From positions 1 to 64,000 of the forward strand of contig MCGO01000131.1 in assembly GCA_002104985.1 (NCBI GenBank): a DNA stretch of 64,000 nucleotides, read 5' to 3'. The position numbers and the translations under genes were made by a program. This document shows positions 18,023-27,600 of the stretch, one piece after another. The notes under the pieces were generated by a model, which saw nothing but the letters and a program-made list of their open reading frames with translations, was not told the DNA's origin and did no database searches. Numbering within the stretch: the first letter of the stretch is position 1; each line of letters begins with the position of its first letter. The stretch comes from Rhizoclosmatium globosum. Its lineage: Eukaryota; Chytridiomycota; Chytridiomycetes; Chytridiales; Chytriomycetaceae.

Positions 18023-19847
18023 ATGGCGACAGCCCCATCCCGTTCCCCCCTCGGACGTATCTTCTGGCCAGCGCTGAAGAAGAGTGTGATTGTTGAAGCA
18101 AAACCAACACACAGCCTTGAGTTAGAAAATCGAGCGAAGGTACGTTGCTTTTGATTGGGTGTGTTTTCTTTCTATAACGCTTTCCCCGTTGCAGTTTCAA
18201 GCTTCTCTCTCAAGAGAACATCAGCTCTTTTTGGAGAATCGACTGTTGAAAGAGGTGACGATCTCATTTCAAACGTTCATCATCAATTGTAACACAAACT
18301 TCAAAATCAAAAGACACACAACGCCGAAATTATTCTGCAAATGACATTAACCAGACAAACAGCTTTGAATCTGGAACTTATGGAACAAAACATCAAAACG
18401 GAAAAAGGAAGAGCCGACGTAGGAATACTCGTTGTAAATCTCTCCTAAAACACGAACAGGAGCTCGAAAAGAAATTGCGCACCACCCTCAAAGAAAATGA
18501 AGCACTAGGCGAGGAATTAGCCGCTGCCAAAGCTAGTTTCCAAATAACTTTGTACAAAACACAAACCGCTCATCAAATGGAGCAAGAGTTGCAAGCAACC
18601 ACTCATAAAATGGCCCTACAGAATTTGATGGAAAACTCCAGGACCGAGTTCAAACGTTTCGTTCAGGATTGTCTTGTTTTTCAAAAGGAGCAGGTTTGTA
18701 GTTTTAAATCGATTTGAATAAACTCAATCCATTCAGGTACGCAACGACATACCAAGCTATCCTATGCGTTTCTGCACGTTAGGGTAAGTCTATTACGACT
18801 ACATCATTGTGCATTGAACTTTTATCTAGAACCGATATGGAAGAAATTGTGGAGGCTGCACCTGAGATGTCAGACGTGGTCGCTGAAAAAATTATGCGTA
18901 AGTTGAGGTACCCCTCACTTCGAATACATCGCTAATAACAAATTACAGTATCTCGAAGAACTGATCCAACACGTTTCGGAAACTACCGATTTCAGAAAAA
19001 GCTCGGCGAAGGCGGAACTGCTGTAGTAAATTTGTACAAAGATTCGAGAAGCAACAAGTTTGTTGCAATCAAGAAGTTGTCAGAGGCAGTATTGATGGAC
19101 TTTGCAATGGAAGTGGAGGTTATGTCCATTGCAAAGCACCCTAATTTGCTTCCATTGTTGGGTTTAAATTTTAAAGTATCGGGTTCGGGTTTTTTGACTG
19201 TAGCAGGGGAAATTGTGATGGATGTTGTCGAGTTTGGACTTCAAGGTCTCATGGATCGGCCTAAAGTGTCATTTCTATGGATTCAAAGTTTAGCATTTCA
19301 GCTTCTGGATGTTGTACAATACCTTCACGATGTGCTTGGGGTGGTGCATCGTGATATCAAACCAGAAAACATTAGATTGACAAAAGGTGGAATTCTTAAA
19401 CTTGGTAAGTACTTTTAATTCTAGATTGGGGAAAAAATTATATCTTAAAAATTCTTGATAGTGGACTTTGGAGCCGCAGTTTTTATGAAGAAAGGTCAGG
19501 AAAGCAGAGTCCAGGGTTTGACAAGGTGGTGCGGCACACCAGATCACTCAGCCCCAGAAGTATTTCAAAGGCGACAATATGGTAGTTCGGTAGATATCTA
19601 TTCGGTTGGAACGATCCTCGAGTATTTGCAGTGGATTATGGACGAGGCTGTCCCTCGCGTGCACCGAAACATACTCAATGAACTTGTGAACGTGTGCAAA
19701 AATGAAAATCCATCATTAAGACCCAACGCAGAGGAGGCTATGATGCATTATCTCTTTGCGGGTGTGGACCTTTCAGAACCAGAACGGTACCGCCCAATTC
19801 GAGACTATTTTGCAAAGCCTTGCTTCCCTCCTTCCTATAACCATTAA
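18023..19847 (+). CDS. Serine/threonine protein kinase with N-terminal coiled coil
   Basis: Eight exons (18023-18139, 18195-18254, 18314-18418, 18460-18693, 18737-18783, 18830-18897, 18949-19404, 19462-19847) join in frame to 490 residues. Residues ~25-170 are a Leu/Glu/Lys-rich coiled coil (LELENRAK, ELEKKLRTTLKENEALGEEL). The kinase domain begins near residue 210. It has a glycine loop (KLGEGGTAVV), the ATP-anchoring lysine (VAIKK), an alpha-C Glu (FAMEVEVM), the catalytic loop VVHRDIKPENI, the DFG motif split by intron 7 (VDFGAAVF), and an APE-like SAPEVF. All catalytic residues are present, so it should be active. The coiled coil probably drives dimerisation or targeting. I cannot assign a kinase subfamily; substrates are unknown. 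The exon-3 acceptor was chosen to keep the coiled coil in frame and is the least certain junction. Confidence 0.85.
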
Positions 19848-20172
19848 ATGATCCGTTTCTTTATTTGTCTTGTAAGTGCTTTCACTTACAACTTCGATAA
19901 CTTAGTCTCGTCCTTTCCAGAATAATTAGTACCCAAGAAAACCACGAAAAAACAAAAAACAAGCACATTTTTATTATCCCATAGAGAAAGTAAGTGAGCA
20001 AGTATTAATTCAATTAAAACAATCAAGAACTAACCCCAATAACTACTGCTTATTATTCTAGGCAAGAAAAGAAAGAGAAAACGAGAGAAAAGAATGAAGA
20101 TGATGCAAATTGTCAAGACTGCTGATTCAAGTTGGAAAGAAAAAACACCAACAAACACACGCGCAACACTTG
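19848..20172. other. Intergenic region between kinase and centromere-type gene
   Basis: AT-rich and A-rich sequence with AAAAACCACG and GAAAAGAAAG tracts, no protein-like frame. It must contain the kinase 3' end and the promoter/leader of the downstream gene. Confidence 0.4.
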
Positions 20173-23085
20173 ATGGAGATGGACGCCTTCCTCATTGGAG
20201 GTAAACAGAGCATTCTTCGCACAGCCATCCAAAGGTACTAAAACAGGCAGTGTTCAGGCACTACCACCACCGGGGCAGTCAAAAAGGCAGGCGGCAGAAG
20301 CAAGAAAGCCACGACGCCCGCGGCCACAGCCAAAGCCAAGGCACCTTCGAAGCCGCGAAAAGACGCATCAAAAGCCTCGGTTTCAGTGGCGCCATCTGCC
20401 ACTGCAACTGCGACTGCAACTGCAACAGCGGCACCTGCTGCGGAGCCCGTGTCCGTGTCTGCCTCTGCCTCTGCATCCACTTCAACAACAACTTCAAACA
20501 CATCTCGAACTGCCGCACCAGCAAAGCGCGTTCGCATTCCCCCGCTCGAGTACTGGAACACAGACAAACAGCAAATCACTGTCCCGTCCGCCGCAGACGA
20601 ACCACCCCAAAAGAAGACTAAGAAATCAGATGCTGCAATCGCTGACGATTCTTCTGCTGAATCAGGAAAGAAGAAACGGAAGGAGAGCCTCGCTGACAAA
20701 AGGGAGCACGTCCCCGTCAAATATTCGGACAACGAATCAACCCCAACCGCATCTTCAAAACCTCGCGCAAAAAAGACCAGCCCACGTGTAACTGAACAGC
20801 CCCTCCCTCCTGGTTGGGCAATGACATCGAAACAACGCGCTACAGGTCATCTGGACTGTACATGGGTTGCTCCAAATGGGCTCAAATTTCGGAGTTACAA
20901 AAGTGTTCAGGATTACTGTGACAAGAATGGAATTCAACTCTCTTCCTTAAATAGTAATAATAATCATGAGGTGGGTACATTCATGTTTGACCACTAGAGA
21001 GGCGTGAAAGCGCAAACTTGTCTGAGGCAAACATACTTTCATAATCGAGAAAAACGAACGCAGCGATCAATGAAACAAAGCGAGTGTTGCAGAACTGATT
21101 TTCGTCAAATGATTGCGTGTACAATCTTTCACATCAAAAAAGAACTTGACCAAAAGTCAAAGAAATAGGAGTTAAAATCTATCCTATTCCAGGTTCACCA
21201 TGACCCAGAAATACAAGCTGTTCTGGAAGAATCCATCGCATCTTCTCATGCTGTTACAGTCTCGGCTGCCTCCAATCACGAAGACGATGAAGAGGATGAA
21301 GAAGTTCCTCTGACAAAGCCTGTCAAACAAAAGCCCACCCAACGCGTAAGTGATCATTTAATTAGATCCACGAATTGTTAATTGGAACATAGTGTGCTCA
21401 AATGATGGTAGAAATCATCGTCAAGGAACCAACCGCGTCTTCAGAGACAGCCATATCGAAACAGTCCGTCTCAGCTCTAGAGAAAACAACCAAAAAGCAA
21501 TCCAACGCAAAACAACAAAAGAAATCCTTGGCGTTGGAATTGAGTGATGACAATGACGAAACGAAATCTTCCTATGACAGTTCTATTCCTTCCGTTACGT
21601 CAGCTAAAGTCTCTTCCATACCGTCAACCACAACTGTCACTGGTGAAAAGAAGCAAATTGTCATCCCCCCACCAGTTCAAGTCAATATTCCTACTATTGA
21701 GCCGTACATTCCAACACATCAACCCAGCACCTTGCAAGAACTTCTTGATCGTGATAAACCTTCGGATCCAAAAGTGAGTTCCCCTGTTCATTTTAAAATT
21801 AACAATGTTGTCAACTTACGATATGGTTTTTAGAACCTCCAAAGTGTAGTGGATAATTTAAACCGCCGCCTCGAAGAAATGCGGACGCTTCGGTACACGG
21901 CACCTGAAAGCCTTCATGCACAATATAAAGTGGCTGCAGAGGCGAGGTATGCATGTGAGTAGACCAATTTTTCGAGGGACTGAAACTGAATATACAAAAA
22001 CCAGCATACGAAGAGAAATTAAAGGAACTCAAGGCCGAACTTGATGAAACGCGTTGCGCGCATCAAAATGCACTTGATACTGTTGTCAAAATGCGTGGGG
22101 CACTTGAGGAGTCAAATTCTGTTGTAGCTGGACTTCGGGCACAAGTGTCGGTAAAAGAAGGGAAAGAGGGAAAAGAGACGGTACAATTGCGAAAAGAAGT
22201 TGAAACGCTACGAATGGAGGTGGAAAAGGTCACCAAGGAGAGGGATATTCTTCGCAAAGAGAGCGAAGCACGGATGTGGGAAGTTGAGCATTTGGAAGAA
22301 GTTTGTGATGAGTTGGAAGCAGAGAAGGACGGAGTTCTGGAAGAGGTTGAGAAGTTGAGCAAGATGGATGAAGAAAGCGAGAGGGAGAAGAAGGTGTTGA
22401 GAGAGCAAGGTATGTTGATTGTTATTATGTTTAGTACTTACTATCTATGACAATCGCAGTGAACACTTTGACTGCTAAATTGGAGAGCTTAGAGAAACTT
22501 AGTCTGGAAGCAAGTGAACGTCCCGCTCAACCAGACCGGTACGCACAGAGACTGGAACGGATGGTTCGTATGTACGAAGAACTTTCGCAGTTCAAGATTT
22601 TGAGTGTGGAAGAAGCGCGCGCAGAGATTGATTCAGACGATGATGAAGATGAGGAGGAGGAAGAGACGGAGGAGGAGGTTGTATCACAGGATGAGATTGA
22701 TCGGGCAAGACGACGTAGTGTACGACGCCAAAGTGGAGTTGGAAAAGGGTTGACCAAAGTCCGTATGCCGCGGTTGGAAGATGTATTGGAGCATCGCTGT
22801 GAAATGAAAGGAACTCGAGGAGGTGAGTGTGTGTTGTTGGGATTCGGTTGGAGTGACTCTTGATTTGCAGAGATTCAATTCACTTTGACCATGCCAAAAG
22901 TGCAGACGGAAACATCAAGTCCCAACATTCTGTATACTCTACACGTTGCCAAGGATGATGAAGGTCGTGTGATGGAGGAGGATGACGATGAGTTGCCAGA
23001 GTACTTGAGTGGAGAAATGACTTTCCCTCGAGAGCGATTAATTGACTTTTTCCGCAAGACTGTGGGATGGTTGTTTTCAGCTTGA
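20173..23085 (+). CDS. Monopolin-type Csm1/Pcs1 protein fused to CENP-C-like motif and methyl-CpG-binding-like domain
   Basis: Eight exons (20173-20200, 20258-20970, 21193-21345, 21393-21773, 21834-21954, 22005-22409, 22460-22822, 22871-23085) join in frame to 792 residues. Residues 99-109, KRVRIPPLEYW, resemble the CENP-C motif that contacts CENP-A nucleosomes. Residues 192-240 begin LPPGW and include GLKFRS, as in methyl-CpG-binding (MBD/TAM) domains. Residues ~400-625 are a long coiled coil. Residues ~630-790 (MVRMYEELSQFKILSVEEA ... LPEYLSGEMTFPRERLIDFF) match the Csm1/Pcs1 globular domain. In yeasts Csm1/Pcs1 works in monopolin at kinetochores and in rDNA silencing and binds CENP-C. I infer a chromatin/kinetochore cross-linker. 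Intron 2 is long (222 nt); if retained, a short CENP-C-motif/MBD protein ending at 20997 would be made. Confidence 0.75.
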
Positions 23086-23612
23086 TGCTTGATGTGGTAT
23101 TATTGGTGGCGTTGGTGTTTTTTGGTGGAAGGTTTCTGGAAGAATTGTATATTACAGGAATTGTGAAATTGGAGCTCGTTGCTTTCATGTTTTTGAATCG
23201 TATTATTTACTTTTAAGAGGAGAGAAGAGAGTTATTAATGTTATGAATTTCTTTGGAAATATATACCCTCTACGGTATAACCTTGATGACGGTTGTCGGA
23301 AATGTGATACAAATTACTGGTAAGCAGGAACGTAATTTTGGAAATGAAGGATGGGTGAATTGGTTGTGTTCCAGCAAGTTGCAACTTCGAAAAATCGCAA
23401 AGGTGAGGAAGGAGGGTGACCCAAGCAAGTTCGGGAAGCGAAAGCGAAAGCGGCCAAGTTTTACGGATTGCAACCAAGGCAGAGGAAGTGTTTGCGAATG
23501 CACATTACGAAAGACTTTTGAGAGAGTTGGTTTGGACTGGCCGAGAGAAGGGACCTGTCACTCACGCAACTTGGCCTCACTCACTCACTCACTCACGCAC
23601 GCACCAAACTAG
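23086..23612. other. Intergenic region with TCAC microsatellite
   Basis: No gene is supported. A CACTCACTCACTCACTC run (about 23576-23602) lies just before the start codon of the next gene and is probably in its 5' leader. Confidence 0.5.
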
Positions 23613-24608
23613 ATGCCGACGCAGCCACCACCGCAGACGCAGACACAGCAACAACAACAACAACAACCTCCAAAACAAATGCGGCACAAACGAAGTGCGG
23701 CATCGTCACTGTCAAGTTCGAGTACGATGCCCTTTTCCCTTTCTAATCAAGTACTCTAAACTTACTCTGAATCAACTAAGGCGGCCACCACGGATGCACC
23801 TGCGGTCACGCCCAGTCGCAGCAATCGCAGCAGCAGCAACAACAACAGCAACAACCACCCCCGCCAAAACAGCATCACCACCATCACCATCACCCGCACT
23901 CACACCCGCATCCGCATCCGCATCCACCTGCTGCCACGCAACAGCCTCTGCCGCAGAAACTACCCCAGCAACAGCAGCAGCAGCAGCAGCAACCTCTGAA
24001 GCAGCAGCAACATCAACCCCAACAATCTCACTCCAAAAAACAACATCCTCCCGCTTCCTCCATACCTGTCGCTCCATCATTAACTGCAACAACATCTTCC
24101 GACCTCGTTCCTTCGTCTGATATATGGTACAAATCGGATGCGGAAGAAAAACAACGGATCCGTGAATTCTGGCTCGAACTCGGTGAAGATGAGCGTAGGA
24201 ACCTGGTCAAGAAGGAAAAGGATGCTGTCATGAAAAAGATTAAGGAACAGCAGAAACATACTTGTTCATGTCCAACCTGTGGAAAGAAAAAGTGAGTATA
24301 GGTTTCTGAGAGTACCTGTGTCAGTGCGTCAGTACAAATGACGGAGAGAAGGTGTTTTGTGGGTTGAGAGTGCGTCGAGTTTTCTCAAAGTGTGTGTGGA
24401 TCGAAAACTTGACTAGGAATCGGAATATTGTGAACGGAAGGGGTGCTGTTTTTAAGTGAACCTTAAGGCTTCATGGGCATGAACTCATCAATATGTGCTT
24501 AAATACGAGAACGGGATAGACTCTGCAATTCTGTTGCAGTACCTGGGACAGAGGGTTGTTGTTGGATGGCCATGATGTTCGATTGAGTGGAGGCGACAAA
24601 ATTAACTC

Positions 24609-24642
<34 letters not shown>

Positions 24643-27600
24643 TTTACGAATGACGGACTGCATAAAGGGTGATTGCTTGGATAGATGAAATGGATTCAAC
24701 CGGATGGACAGCCTTTAAGGCTTTCAGAGCTGTTACATTCGTGGAGAACAAATGTGATATTGGAAGCAAAAACAGTTCTCTGACTGAAAGACTCTGGGGC
24801 ATTAGAATCGGAAAGTCGAATAGAAATATTAGGCAGGATAGCGAATATGGACCCTCTGCGAATAGCATTAGCATAGCGAACATCGGCTCAGTTTTTTGGG
24901 CTGAGAATGTTGCCCTGGTTTGCAGCCTCAGTATCGAAGGCTGTATGGGAATGAGGATTATGATTACAAATAGCGAGAATTGCCTTTAAGATTCACAGTC
25001 TGAGGAATGGTCCTAATCATTTCTTTCAGATCACTGATTGAAGAAGAACTGGAACTCCTTTATGATGCTTACTACGAAGAACTCGAGAACTTTGCTCAAA
25101 GTCAATCATCACAAGCCCCAAATGGTGCCTCCAACTCAAATCCTGTGCCCCCACCGGTAAAACATAGTAACAATCCATATTCAAAAGGTTAGTTTTGTTC
25201 TTAATTGCTAGAGAAGGCTGAGCCTAATGCTGTAAATTCAGTGATCGAACCGCCACAACCACATTACTGTTCAAACCATCGTCACCACCATCATCATCAC
25301 CACCACAAAGAAGATGATTTAGACTATACAGACGAGTATGATGAAGAATATGACGACGAAGACGAACACGACCATGATAGTCACGGACATCATCATCACC
25401 ATCATCACCGTCCTCGTCCTACAACAGCAAGGAGTAGTATATTTGAATTTGGAAGCGGACTAACAGTAAAAGGTGTCTCTTTGGAAGATTTCAATGATTG
25501 ATGACTAAATCTATTCTTTCAGATGGGGGCATCTTGACTGTAGCTGAGGACTTTCTCAAAAACGATGGTCGAAAGTTTCTGGACCTTATGGAGCAATTAG
25601 CTGAACGAAAGATTCGGTTATTGGAAGACGACCAAGATCCCAATAATATGACAATTGCTCAACAGCAGCAACAGCAACAGGCAACGGCTGCTGTAGCCGC
25701 TGCTGCTGCTGCAACGCATACCTCTACTGCTGCTCCGACACAAAACTCTGCCCCGCTTGCCCCTGATTCTCTGGACGGAGATGGTGAAGAGGAAGAGGAA
25801 GACGAAGAAGAGTACGATGATGACGAAGAAGGGGATGAGGAAGAATATGACGACGAAGATCTTGAGGACGATGAGGAATACGATGACGAAGAAGAGGAAG
25901 AGGTGAATATTTTTGACTACAGTTTGAGTGCTCACGTATTCTATGCACTTCAACCAGGACATTCTAACAGAAGAGCAAAGGATGGAAGAAGGTCGACGTA
26001 TGTTCCAGATCTTTGCAGCCAAAATGTTTGAACAACGTGTGTTGGCTGCGTACCGAGAGAAGGTTGCGTACGAGCGTCAGAATCGGTTGCTCCAAGAGTT
26101 GGAAGAGGAACAAAAACTCAAGGATCAGAAAGAGGAAGCTAAACAAAGGCTGAAGGAAAAGAAAAAGGCCCAGAAAAAGTAAGTTACTGTTATAATATTT
26201 ACGCGTTGTATTGATTGGTTCAATAGAGCGGCAAAACTCCAAAAAGAGGATGAGAAGCTACAACGGGAGAAGGAAAAGCAAGCTGAGGAAGAGGAACAGC
26301 GGATCCAACGCGAAAAGAAGGCTGCCGAGGATCGGTACATTTCATAGTTAAAGGATTCAACAATAATTTCTGAACCAATTTTACAGTGCCAAGCGAGAAG
26401 CCGAACGAGCAAAAAAAGAGGCAGAACGCTTGAAGAAAGAAGAAGCGGAACGAGCGCGTCGTGAAGCTGAACGCAAACGAAAAGAGGAAGAGATCCGAAA
26501 GCAGAAGGAAGCTGAAGAGAGAAAGCAGAAAGCCAGAGAGGAAGCTGAACGCATAGAGCGAGAGAACCGTGAGCGCAAGGAGCGCGAGAAGGAAGCTGCA
26601 CGTCAACGTGCACAGAAAGCTCGCGAGGAAGCGGAAGCTCGTGCTCGTGCCCAGGCTGAGGAGGAGGAACAAGCACGAATGGCGAAAGTTGCTGCAGAAC
26701 AGGCAGCCGCAAGTGCGGCTAGTGCTGCTGTCGAACCAAAGTCTTCCTCTCACGGGACTGCTTTGTCTCCAGACAGCAAAGTTCGACAGCAACTCGCAAC
26801 CATGGGGTTGAATGAATCTGCTGTTACTTCATCCATCTCTGCCGCACATCTAGGATATCAGCAACAACAACACCAGATGTATGGGTCTCATCAGCCTATC
26901 GCTCAGTATGTTGTTTCTGGACCACCGAAATTGCAGCAGTATCAGCAACAACAACAGCCAATGATGATGCCATCAGGATTGGGTGGGATGAACAGTGGGC
27001 CACCAGCGCAAAAAACTGGTCTTGAAGTGTCCCCTCCATTAACGTCGACTATGGCTCCTGTTAATGGTATGACAAATTATGGAGGATGGAATCAGAATGG
27101 ATACAATGGAGTCCAGGTTATGAACCCTCCAATTCGTCAGACCACTGTTCCGCTCGGTTCCAACTTCAATGCGATTGCTGGCGTTTTGCCAACTCCACCC
27201 CAATCTGCCATTTCTCCTGAACTGGAATTGGCCCCTCTTGGAGTTCACTTGAATAGACAGGCTTCAGCCCCTCTTGCTCACAAAGCAGTGGGTCGTCAAG
27301 CTCCCATTGGTAGGCCGTCGGCTTTGTCGATCTCATCCTTAGATGGTCTTGGCTCGAGCTCGACTGCCAGTCCAATTCTGACACCTTTAGTTGATCACTT
27401 TGGGCCAGCTGGGCAATATGCAAGCAGTCAATTCAATGCTTCATCGAATGGTTTGCTGAAAAAGTCGACCGCATCTTCATCGTTTGAAAATATTCCTTCA
27501 TTCAATGATGGATTTGTGGAACCGTCTTCCTTGCTTGGTGGTGGGCTTGGGGCTAAGCAATTGCTTAAACCTGATATCAGTCGAATTCAACAGAATCAAG

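Follow-up and report, generated by a model that had tools for sequence, protein, structure and literature searches.

A 64,000-nucleotide stretch of the genome of the chytrid Rhizoclosmatium globosum (positions 1 to 64,000 of contig MCGO01000131.1, here contig C37, in the 56.9-Mb, 420-contig assembly GCA_002104985.1; hereafter, the window) contains on its forward strand, at 20173-23085, a gene with a predicted product of 792 amino acids. Judged by its domains, this product is the organism's Csm1/Pcs1 (monopolin core) protein, with one detected locus in two haplotypes. Unusually, a motif of the CENP-C type appears to be built into Csm1 in this genome and in three other chytrid genera, and this is the best supported of the claims made here. 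The window protein additionally contains a methyl-CpG-binding domain (MBD).

A CENP-C-like motif in Csm1 proteins

The first-pass annotation of the window had noted that KRVRIPPLEYW (20524-20556, + strand, residues 99-109) resembles the CENP-C motif. To score this likeness, we used a position-specific scoring matrix (PSSM) built from five CENP-C motifs, three from Protein Data Bank (PDB) chains and two from CENP-C-like genes of this genome, with no Csm1 protein in the training set. The null set comprised 77,409 positions in 808 open frames of at least 60 amino acids, drawn from the window and 15 of 58 loci, with the loci of CENP-C and Csm1 genes omitted. KRVRIPPLEYW ranked first of the 77,409 positions with 26.6 bits, compared to 13.4 bits for the best unrelated position, which bears out the resemblance. 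Across its six frames, the window has one occurrence of the pattern R.R..P..[YF]W, whereas 100 mononucleotide-shuffled versions had 0.02 on average. Comparison of KRVRIPPLEYW to PDB sequences yielded 4 matches at E ≤ 10, all of them CENP-C or Mif2; with so short a motif, the best E value was just 0.014.

A search with residues 620-792 identified three proteins among 3631 candidates, 65-72% identical to the window protein in this part, from Obelidium mucronatum, Siphonaria sp. JEL0065 and Podochytrium sp. JEL0797; Obelidium and Podochytrium belong to the Chytriomycetaceae. An alignment-based search with a 480-residue profile, in which the 7986 best-sharing candidates were scored, returned the same three relatives alone. 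All three have a Csm1 domain above the cut-off and an N-terminal motif of the form KRxRxxPxx[YF]W, so that all 4 proteins share K99, R100, R102, P105 and W109; the rest of the N-terminal half aligns poorly among the four. In each of the four proteins, the motif is the top PSSM window.

Several observations weigh against this interpretation of the motif. At 14.3, 14.4 and 13.4 bits, the motifs of the relatives are close to the best null score (second-best windows inside the same proteins, 1.9, 5.1 and 0.1 bits), so that singly they lie near the noise ceiling and draw their support from their common position and their invariance. Only the motif core is present, with no RGE..Y continuation as in CENP-C proteins, and a four-species motif profile had only 3 CENP-C chains among its 10 PDB matches (best E = 0.016). 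Furthermore, the relatives' proteins are predicted gene models, and that of Siphonaria sp. JEL0065 (P0002) is flagged UNVERIFIED_CONTAM by its source.

The first-pass annotation had known of no description of this architecture. The MBD was seen solely in the window protein (no match at E ≤ 0.1 in the three relatives, and an alignment block unique to the window protein), whereas the CENP-C-like motif recurs in 3 of 3 relatives. The simplest history would have the motif as the older feature of these Csm1 proteins, with the MBD gained later; loss of the MBD in the other three is also possible.

In CENP-C, the acidic patch of H2A/H2B is contacted by the basic residues of the motif and the CENP-A tail by its aromatic pair, selectivity for CENP-A in vitro is modest, and the motif alone is insufficient for kinetochore targeting (PMC5371998; all papers are cited here for individual passages). 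The CENP-C-like motif of KNL2, CENPC-k, is present in KNL2 of chytrid fungi and serves in centromere targeting and CENH3-nucleosome binding, for which its Arg and Trp are required (PMC9210943). The window protein shares the nucleosome-binding motif core with CENP-C/Mif2, but has no cupin match, and the CENP-C-like genes of the genome sit elsewhere. It resembles KNL2/M18BP1 in that a CENP-C-like motif occurs in a different centromere protein, but it has a Csm1 domain and no SANTA match, and the motif spacing differs (KRSRSGRV/LLVSPLEFW in KNL2, PMC9210943, vs. KRVRIPPLEYW). Classification as CENP-C and classification as KNL2/M18BP1 were both rejected, given that neither the PF11699 cupin nor the PF09133 SANTA domain was among the 7 Pfam families matching the protein at E ≤ 10.

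Csm1 domain and likely coiled coil

In yeasts, monopolin binds CENP-C, a separate protein, and the C-terminal domain of the window protein had been assigned to the monopolin subunit Csm1/Pcs1. This assignment stands: Pfam Csm1 matches residues 710-775 with 26.9 bits, above the curated cut-off of 22.6 (E = 7.4 × 10−6), and, apart from the MBD, the other 5 of the 7 families at E ≤ 10 are below their cut-offs. Genome-wide, there are 4 Csm1 domain matches, namely two exon pieces each at the window locus and at its copy on contig C357. A four-species profile of the Csm1 domain (88 positions) gave 8 PDB matches, 7 of them Csm1, with three at E values from 5.6 × 10−4 to 8.9 × 10−4. With the 480-residue profile, the best 60 of 69 PDB matches were mostly helical or coiled-coil chains (top, an Smc chain at E = 1.1 × 10−4; Csm1 at E = 0.12-0.29), and the predicted AlphaFold model of relative P0001 has long helices of good confidence in the coiled-coil part. 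On the negative side, the AlphaFold results for the relatives (three sequences, P0001 first) have a mean pLDDT of 53.4, and the model of the Csm1 domain, mostly below 50, is too poor to show the hydrophobic cavity with which Csm1 binds Dsn1. For Lrs4/Mde4, the partner of Csm1/Pcs1 in a V-shaped assembly, the sole LRS4 match in the genome is, at 17.2 bits, under the cut-off of 24.2; Lrs4 is probably a rapidly diverging protein (PMC6823300).

Many lineages of eukaryotes have Csm1, a crosslinker that binds Dsn1 (PMC6823300, PMC7614391, PMC12595034); it is described as an ancient kinetochore part that is recruited via Dsn1 (PMC6823300, PMC12595034). Like Csm1/Pcs1/TITAN9, the monopolin core of the outer kinetochore, the window protein has a Csm1 domain above the cut-off, a preceding stretch of likely coiled-coil type and one detected locus; unlike them, it has a CENP-C-type motif and an MBD in its N-terminal half. 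The passages of the Csm1 literature that describe recruitment by Dsn1 do not mention a nucleosome-binding motif in Csm1.

The methyl-CpG-binding domain

An MBD-like domain had likewise been proposed from the sequence, and PF01429 matches it (20779-20934, + strand, residues 184-235; match also placed at 20776-20934) with 30.4 bits in the whole protein and 35.4 bits for the segment, above the curated cut-off of 21 (E = 2.9 × 10−7); LPPGW begins at residue 192 and GLKFRS at residue 217. By profile, the domain thus belongs to the family of MBD4, MBD2 and MeCP2. Compared to PDB sequences, the segment gave 40 matches, the best 26 of which are MBD-type, with MBD4 at the top (E = 5 × 10−7) and MBD2, MBD3, plant MBD6 and MeCP2 among them; BAZ2B and an attachment-region-binding protein, also among these, we take to be MBD-type. 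MBD4 differs in that its loop between the first Arg and the Asp is four residues longer and in that it is not fused to Csm1. When the MBD part was used as a query against proteins, no candidate had three 5-residue words in common with it; relatives may exist all the same.

The roles of the methyl-CpG-contacting residues have been described for MeCP2 (PMC8811898). In the alignment to MBD4, with numbering transferred, two Arg and the Asp are kept at the positions of such residues. The fourth position, presumably that of Tyr123 of MeCP2, is occupied by Thr in the window protein, and with Arg, Arg and Asp kept but Tyr changed to Thr, the case for methyl-CpG selectivity is mixed. That the domain binds DNA or a protein partner and does not read methylation, as is the case for the MBD of mammalian MBD3, is a serious contender, although we put it at somewhat less than even chances. 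The Thr substitution speaks for such a role, as does a review according to which 5-methylcytosine (5mC) has largely been replaced by N6-methyladenine (6mA), and is scarce, in early-diverging fungi (PMC13297926); both points count against methylation reading. Conversely, the two Arg and the Asp are retained, and the sole other MBD above the cut-off outside the two haplotypes adjoins DNMT5-like sequence. The observed/expected CpG ratio is 0.73 in the window vs. 0.88 in the stretch that contains this other MBD, a weak hint at most. In Cryptococcus, 5mC marks and is enriched at native centromeres (PMC8407549).

Gene structure and the second haplotype

Candidate exon chains were enumerated from GT-AG choices near the previously stated junctions. 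Twelve such chains are open, with variation confined to introns 2, 3 and 7, so that the choice of exons is not unique; we adopted the chain with donors GTAAGT in intron 3 and GTGAGT in intron 7 and acceptor TTCCAG in intron 2. Its eight GT-AG exons at 20173-23085 (+ strand) join to 2379 nt, that is, 792 amino acids and a stop codon, which agrees with the 793 codons of the first-pass annotation. The parts are as follows.

20173-20200, +, exon 1: residues 1-9 with the start codon; in-frame splice chain, identical in the second haplotype
20258-20970, +, exon 2: CENP-C-like motif and MBD, uninterrupted
20971-21192, +, predicted intron 2: 222 nt, GTGGGT...CCAG; ends alike in both haplotypes, other acceptors open
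21193-21345, +, exon 3: acidic linker
21393-21773, +, exon 4: linker
21834-21954, +, exon 5: likely start of the coiled coil (coiled-coil-type matches; helices in relative P0001)
22005-22409, +, exon 6: likely coiled coil
22460-22822, +, exon 7: likely end of the coiled coil, conserved LERMVRMYEEL block, start of the Csm1 domain
22871-23085, +, exon 8: bulk of the Csm1 globular domain, stop codon

Because the motif and the MBD share the single exon 20258-20970, their linkage requires no splicing. Joining them to the Csm1 domain would require removal of the predicted 222-nt intron at 20971-21192. If intron 2 is retained, the frame stops at 20997 and yields a short protein with motif and MBD that ends in GTFMFDH; this form could be a natural isoform.

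The assembly has two haplotypes here, as positions 18501-25500 of the window are 95.9% identical to contig C357 over 7 kb. In the C357 copy, the eight exons form one open frame, GT and AG are kept at all seven introns, and the sole coding indel is 6 nt long. We counted 34 synonymous and 24 non-synonymous differences between the haplotypes (ratio of non-synonymous to synonymous rates, pN/pS, 0.21), and substitutions at the three codon positions number 11, 11 and 36. By region, pN/pS is 0.23 in the linker (residues 241-425) and 0.07 in the C-terminal part (621-792), the MBD (186-240) has two synonymous and two non-synonymous changes, and exon 3 has coding-like changes, with 5 codons altered, 3 silent and 2 replaced. 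The coiled-coil part (426-620) departs from this constraint with 1 synonymous and 3 non-synonymous differences (ratio 0.8, from very few changes). Taken together, these differences support a coding role for the sequence to either side of intron 2, although small counts from two haplotypes cannot prove splicing. With the second haplotype and the predicted proteins of three relatives, which hold the motif and the Csm1 domain together, both backing a single gene, we consider the protein to be real as regards its gene structure and domains, provided that transcripts bear out intron 2. Between the haplotypes, 14 of the 50 bases of intron 6 differ; in the adjoining exons, the figures are 2 of 405 (exon 6) and 8 of 363 (exon 7).

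Possible mechanism and alternative explanations

These features suggest a self-targeting monopolin crosslinker that would grip CENP-A nucleosomes, with an additional contact to DNA or methyl-CpG, and we consider such a role probable. Csm1 would dimerize through the coiled coil. From the flexible N-terminal half, Arg100 with the basic residues around it would engage the H2A/H2B acidic patch, and Tyr108/Trp109 would lie against the hydrophobic tail at the C terminus of CENP-A (residues assigned via alignment to CENP-C). With two motifs per Csm1 dimer, the protein could clamp two centromeric nucleosomes directly, adding to the Dsn1 route, as the C-terminal domain would retain binding to Dsn1 and other partners. 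The MBD would supply a contact to DNA, possibly methyl-CpG-selective, that would strengthen the hold on methylated centromeric DNA. We thus infer that the window protein might read both CENP-A nucleosomes and DNA methylation, the evidence on methylation being mixed. A stronger version, in which Csm1 reads CENP-A nucleosomes and methylated centromeric DNA, crosslinks them without recruitment by Dsn1 or CENP-C, and lets methylation feed into kinetochore organization, is more tentative, and we lean against it.

A nucleosome-binding motif within Csm1 itself suggests that the protein is also recruited directly, by a second route, and that centromeric nucleosomes can be crosslinked in another way. 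Should the MBD read methyl-CpG, it would join centromeric 5mC, as described in Cryptococcus (PMC8407549), with kinetochore crosslinking. Literature searches, which covered few subscription papers, found no work on Csm1 and CENP-C in chytrids, on a CENP-C motif and Csm1, on monopolin and methyl-CpG-binding in fungi, or on DNMT5 and methyl-CpG-binding in chytrids; the architecture may nonetheless have been published. Among the best 15 of 3238 matches for Csm1 or monopolin and MBD or methyl-CpG, neither topic was joined to the other, and the passages of PMC10538959 examined for DNMT5 and MBD do not mention the MBD.

The motif might alternatively be a general acidic-patch anchor that holds the protein to any nucleosome, with no selectivity for CENP-A. 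In its favour, the canonical motif's C-terminal extension lacks conservation here, but in all 4 proteins Pro and Trp are kept and Trp follows either Tyr or Phe, and it is this Pro/aromatic part that faces the CENP-A tail in CENP-C (PMC5371998). We regard a general anchor as unlikely, though worth keeping in view. Far less credible are two adjacent genes, namely one for a short motif and MBD protein ending at 20997 and a separate, downstream Csm1 gene. Such an arrangement draws on intron 2, which also weighs against a single gene: it is unusually long (222 nt vs. 47-60 nt for the other six) with a less regular donor (GTGGGT), exon 2 is open through this donor to the stop at 20997, and a Met in the Csm1 frame is available in exon 4. 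However, the motif and the Csm1 domain lie within one predicted protein in 3 of 3 relatives, the intron ends and the frame are kept in the second haplotype, and exon 3, which lies upstream of the exon 4 Met, changes like coding sequence. Finally, that a basic region of low complexity should resemble the CENP-C motif by chance, an idea to which the shortness of the motif, the modest PDB E values (0.014 and 0.016) and the near-ceiling scores of the relatives lend some colour, is highly improbable given the PSSM margin in the window, the shuffle count and the five residues kept in the same position in 4 of 4 proteins.

Other centromere and methylation genes in the genome

The first-pass annotation had raised the matter of separate CENP-C and DNA methyltransferase genes, and candidates for both were identified. 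The CENP-C cupin matches at C33:41806-42120 and C365:74706-75020, with the motif EKRTRMAPLEFWRGEQIKY, are near-identical and are read as a haplotype pair, the stop within each match being read as an intron. At C135:133997-134277, there are only cupin matches below the cut-off, with the motif KSRRVSVQPVEWWKGERVEY. These are two distinct CENP-C-like genes, and the variant of the CENP-C motif differs between them. A CENP-A candidate, which we take to be such by likeness to fungal CENP-A sequences, lies at C57:351500-354500 and has the tail RRIRGQWGGLA. Four places, on contigs C146, C393, C68 and C79, encode H3-like C-terminal halves that are divergent but much alike and contain an insertion (VREITEDFVNGSLFAMNES...); they may be remnants or represent a second variant of the CENP-A type. 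A SANTA search of the genome gave no match, which does not show absence.

We identified 31 DNA methyltransferase matches at E ≤ 1, some with internal stops, many of them fragments, and with types unsorted. MBD matches occur on C101, on C357 and in the window, with a weak one, containing stops, on C374. The C101 MBD lies at 2446-2580 of the stretch C101:180500-190000, with methyltransferase and SNF2 sequence downstream. Two downstream pieces match PDB 7r76_A in conserved order (E = 1.3 × 10−79 and 5.3 × 10−18), an entry listed under the name DNA repair protein Rad8 that we take to be Cryptococcus Dnmt5. Of five C101 pieces compared to Pfam, one matched MBD, one matched SNF2 and three had no match at E ≤ 0.01; as C101 is also absent from the PF00145 matches, the label DNMT5-like rests on the 7r76 match. 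Cryptococcus Dnmt5 has been described with an N-terminal chromodomain (PMC8407549). One predicted phase-0 intron suggests that the C101 MBD exon belongs to the same transcript as the DNMT5-like gene.

In a hand alignment of 45 residues, the C101 MBD and that of the window gene are identical at 25. The two share a shortened loop and a predicted phase-0 intron close behind NGI (13 residues after it in C101, 12 in the window gene); the C101 MBD differs in that it keeps the Tyr and is followed by methyltransferase and SNF2 sequence. These likenesses hint that the two chytrid MBDs are related, perhaps via exon copying; because MBD4 is nearly as similar (21 of 45), their common origin is plausible but unproven.

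The gene is flanked in the window by an upstream gene for a kinase, of which two exon pieces were read, and by an NST1-family gene downstream, neither of them centromeric by family.
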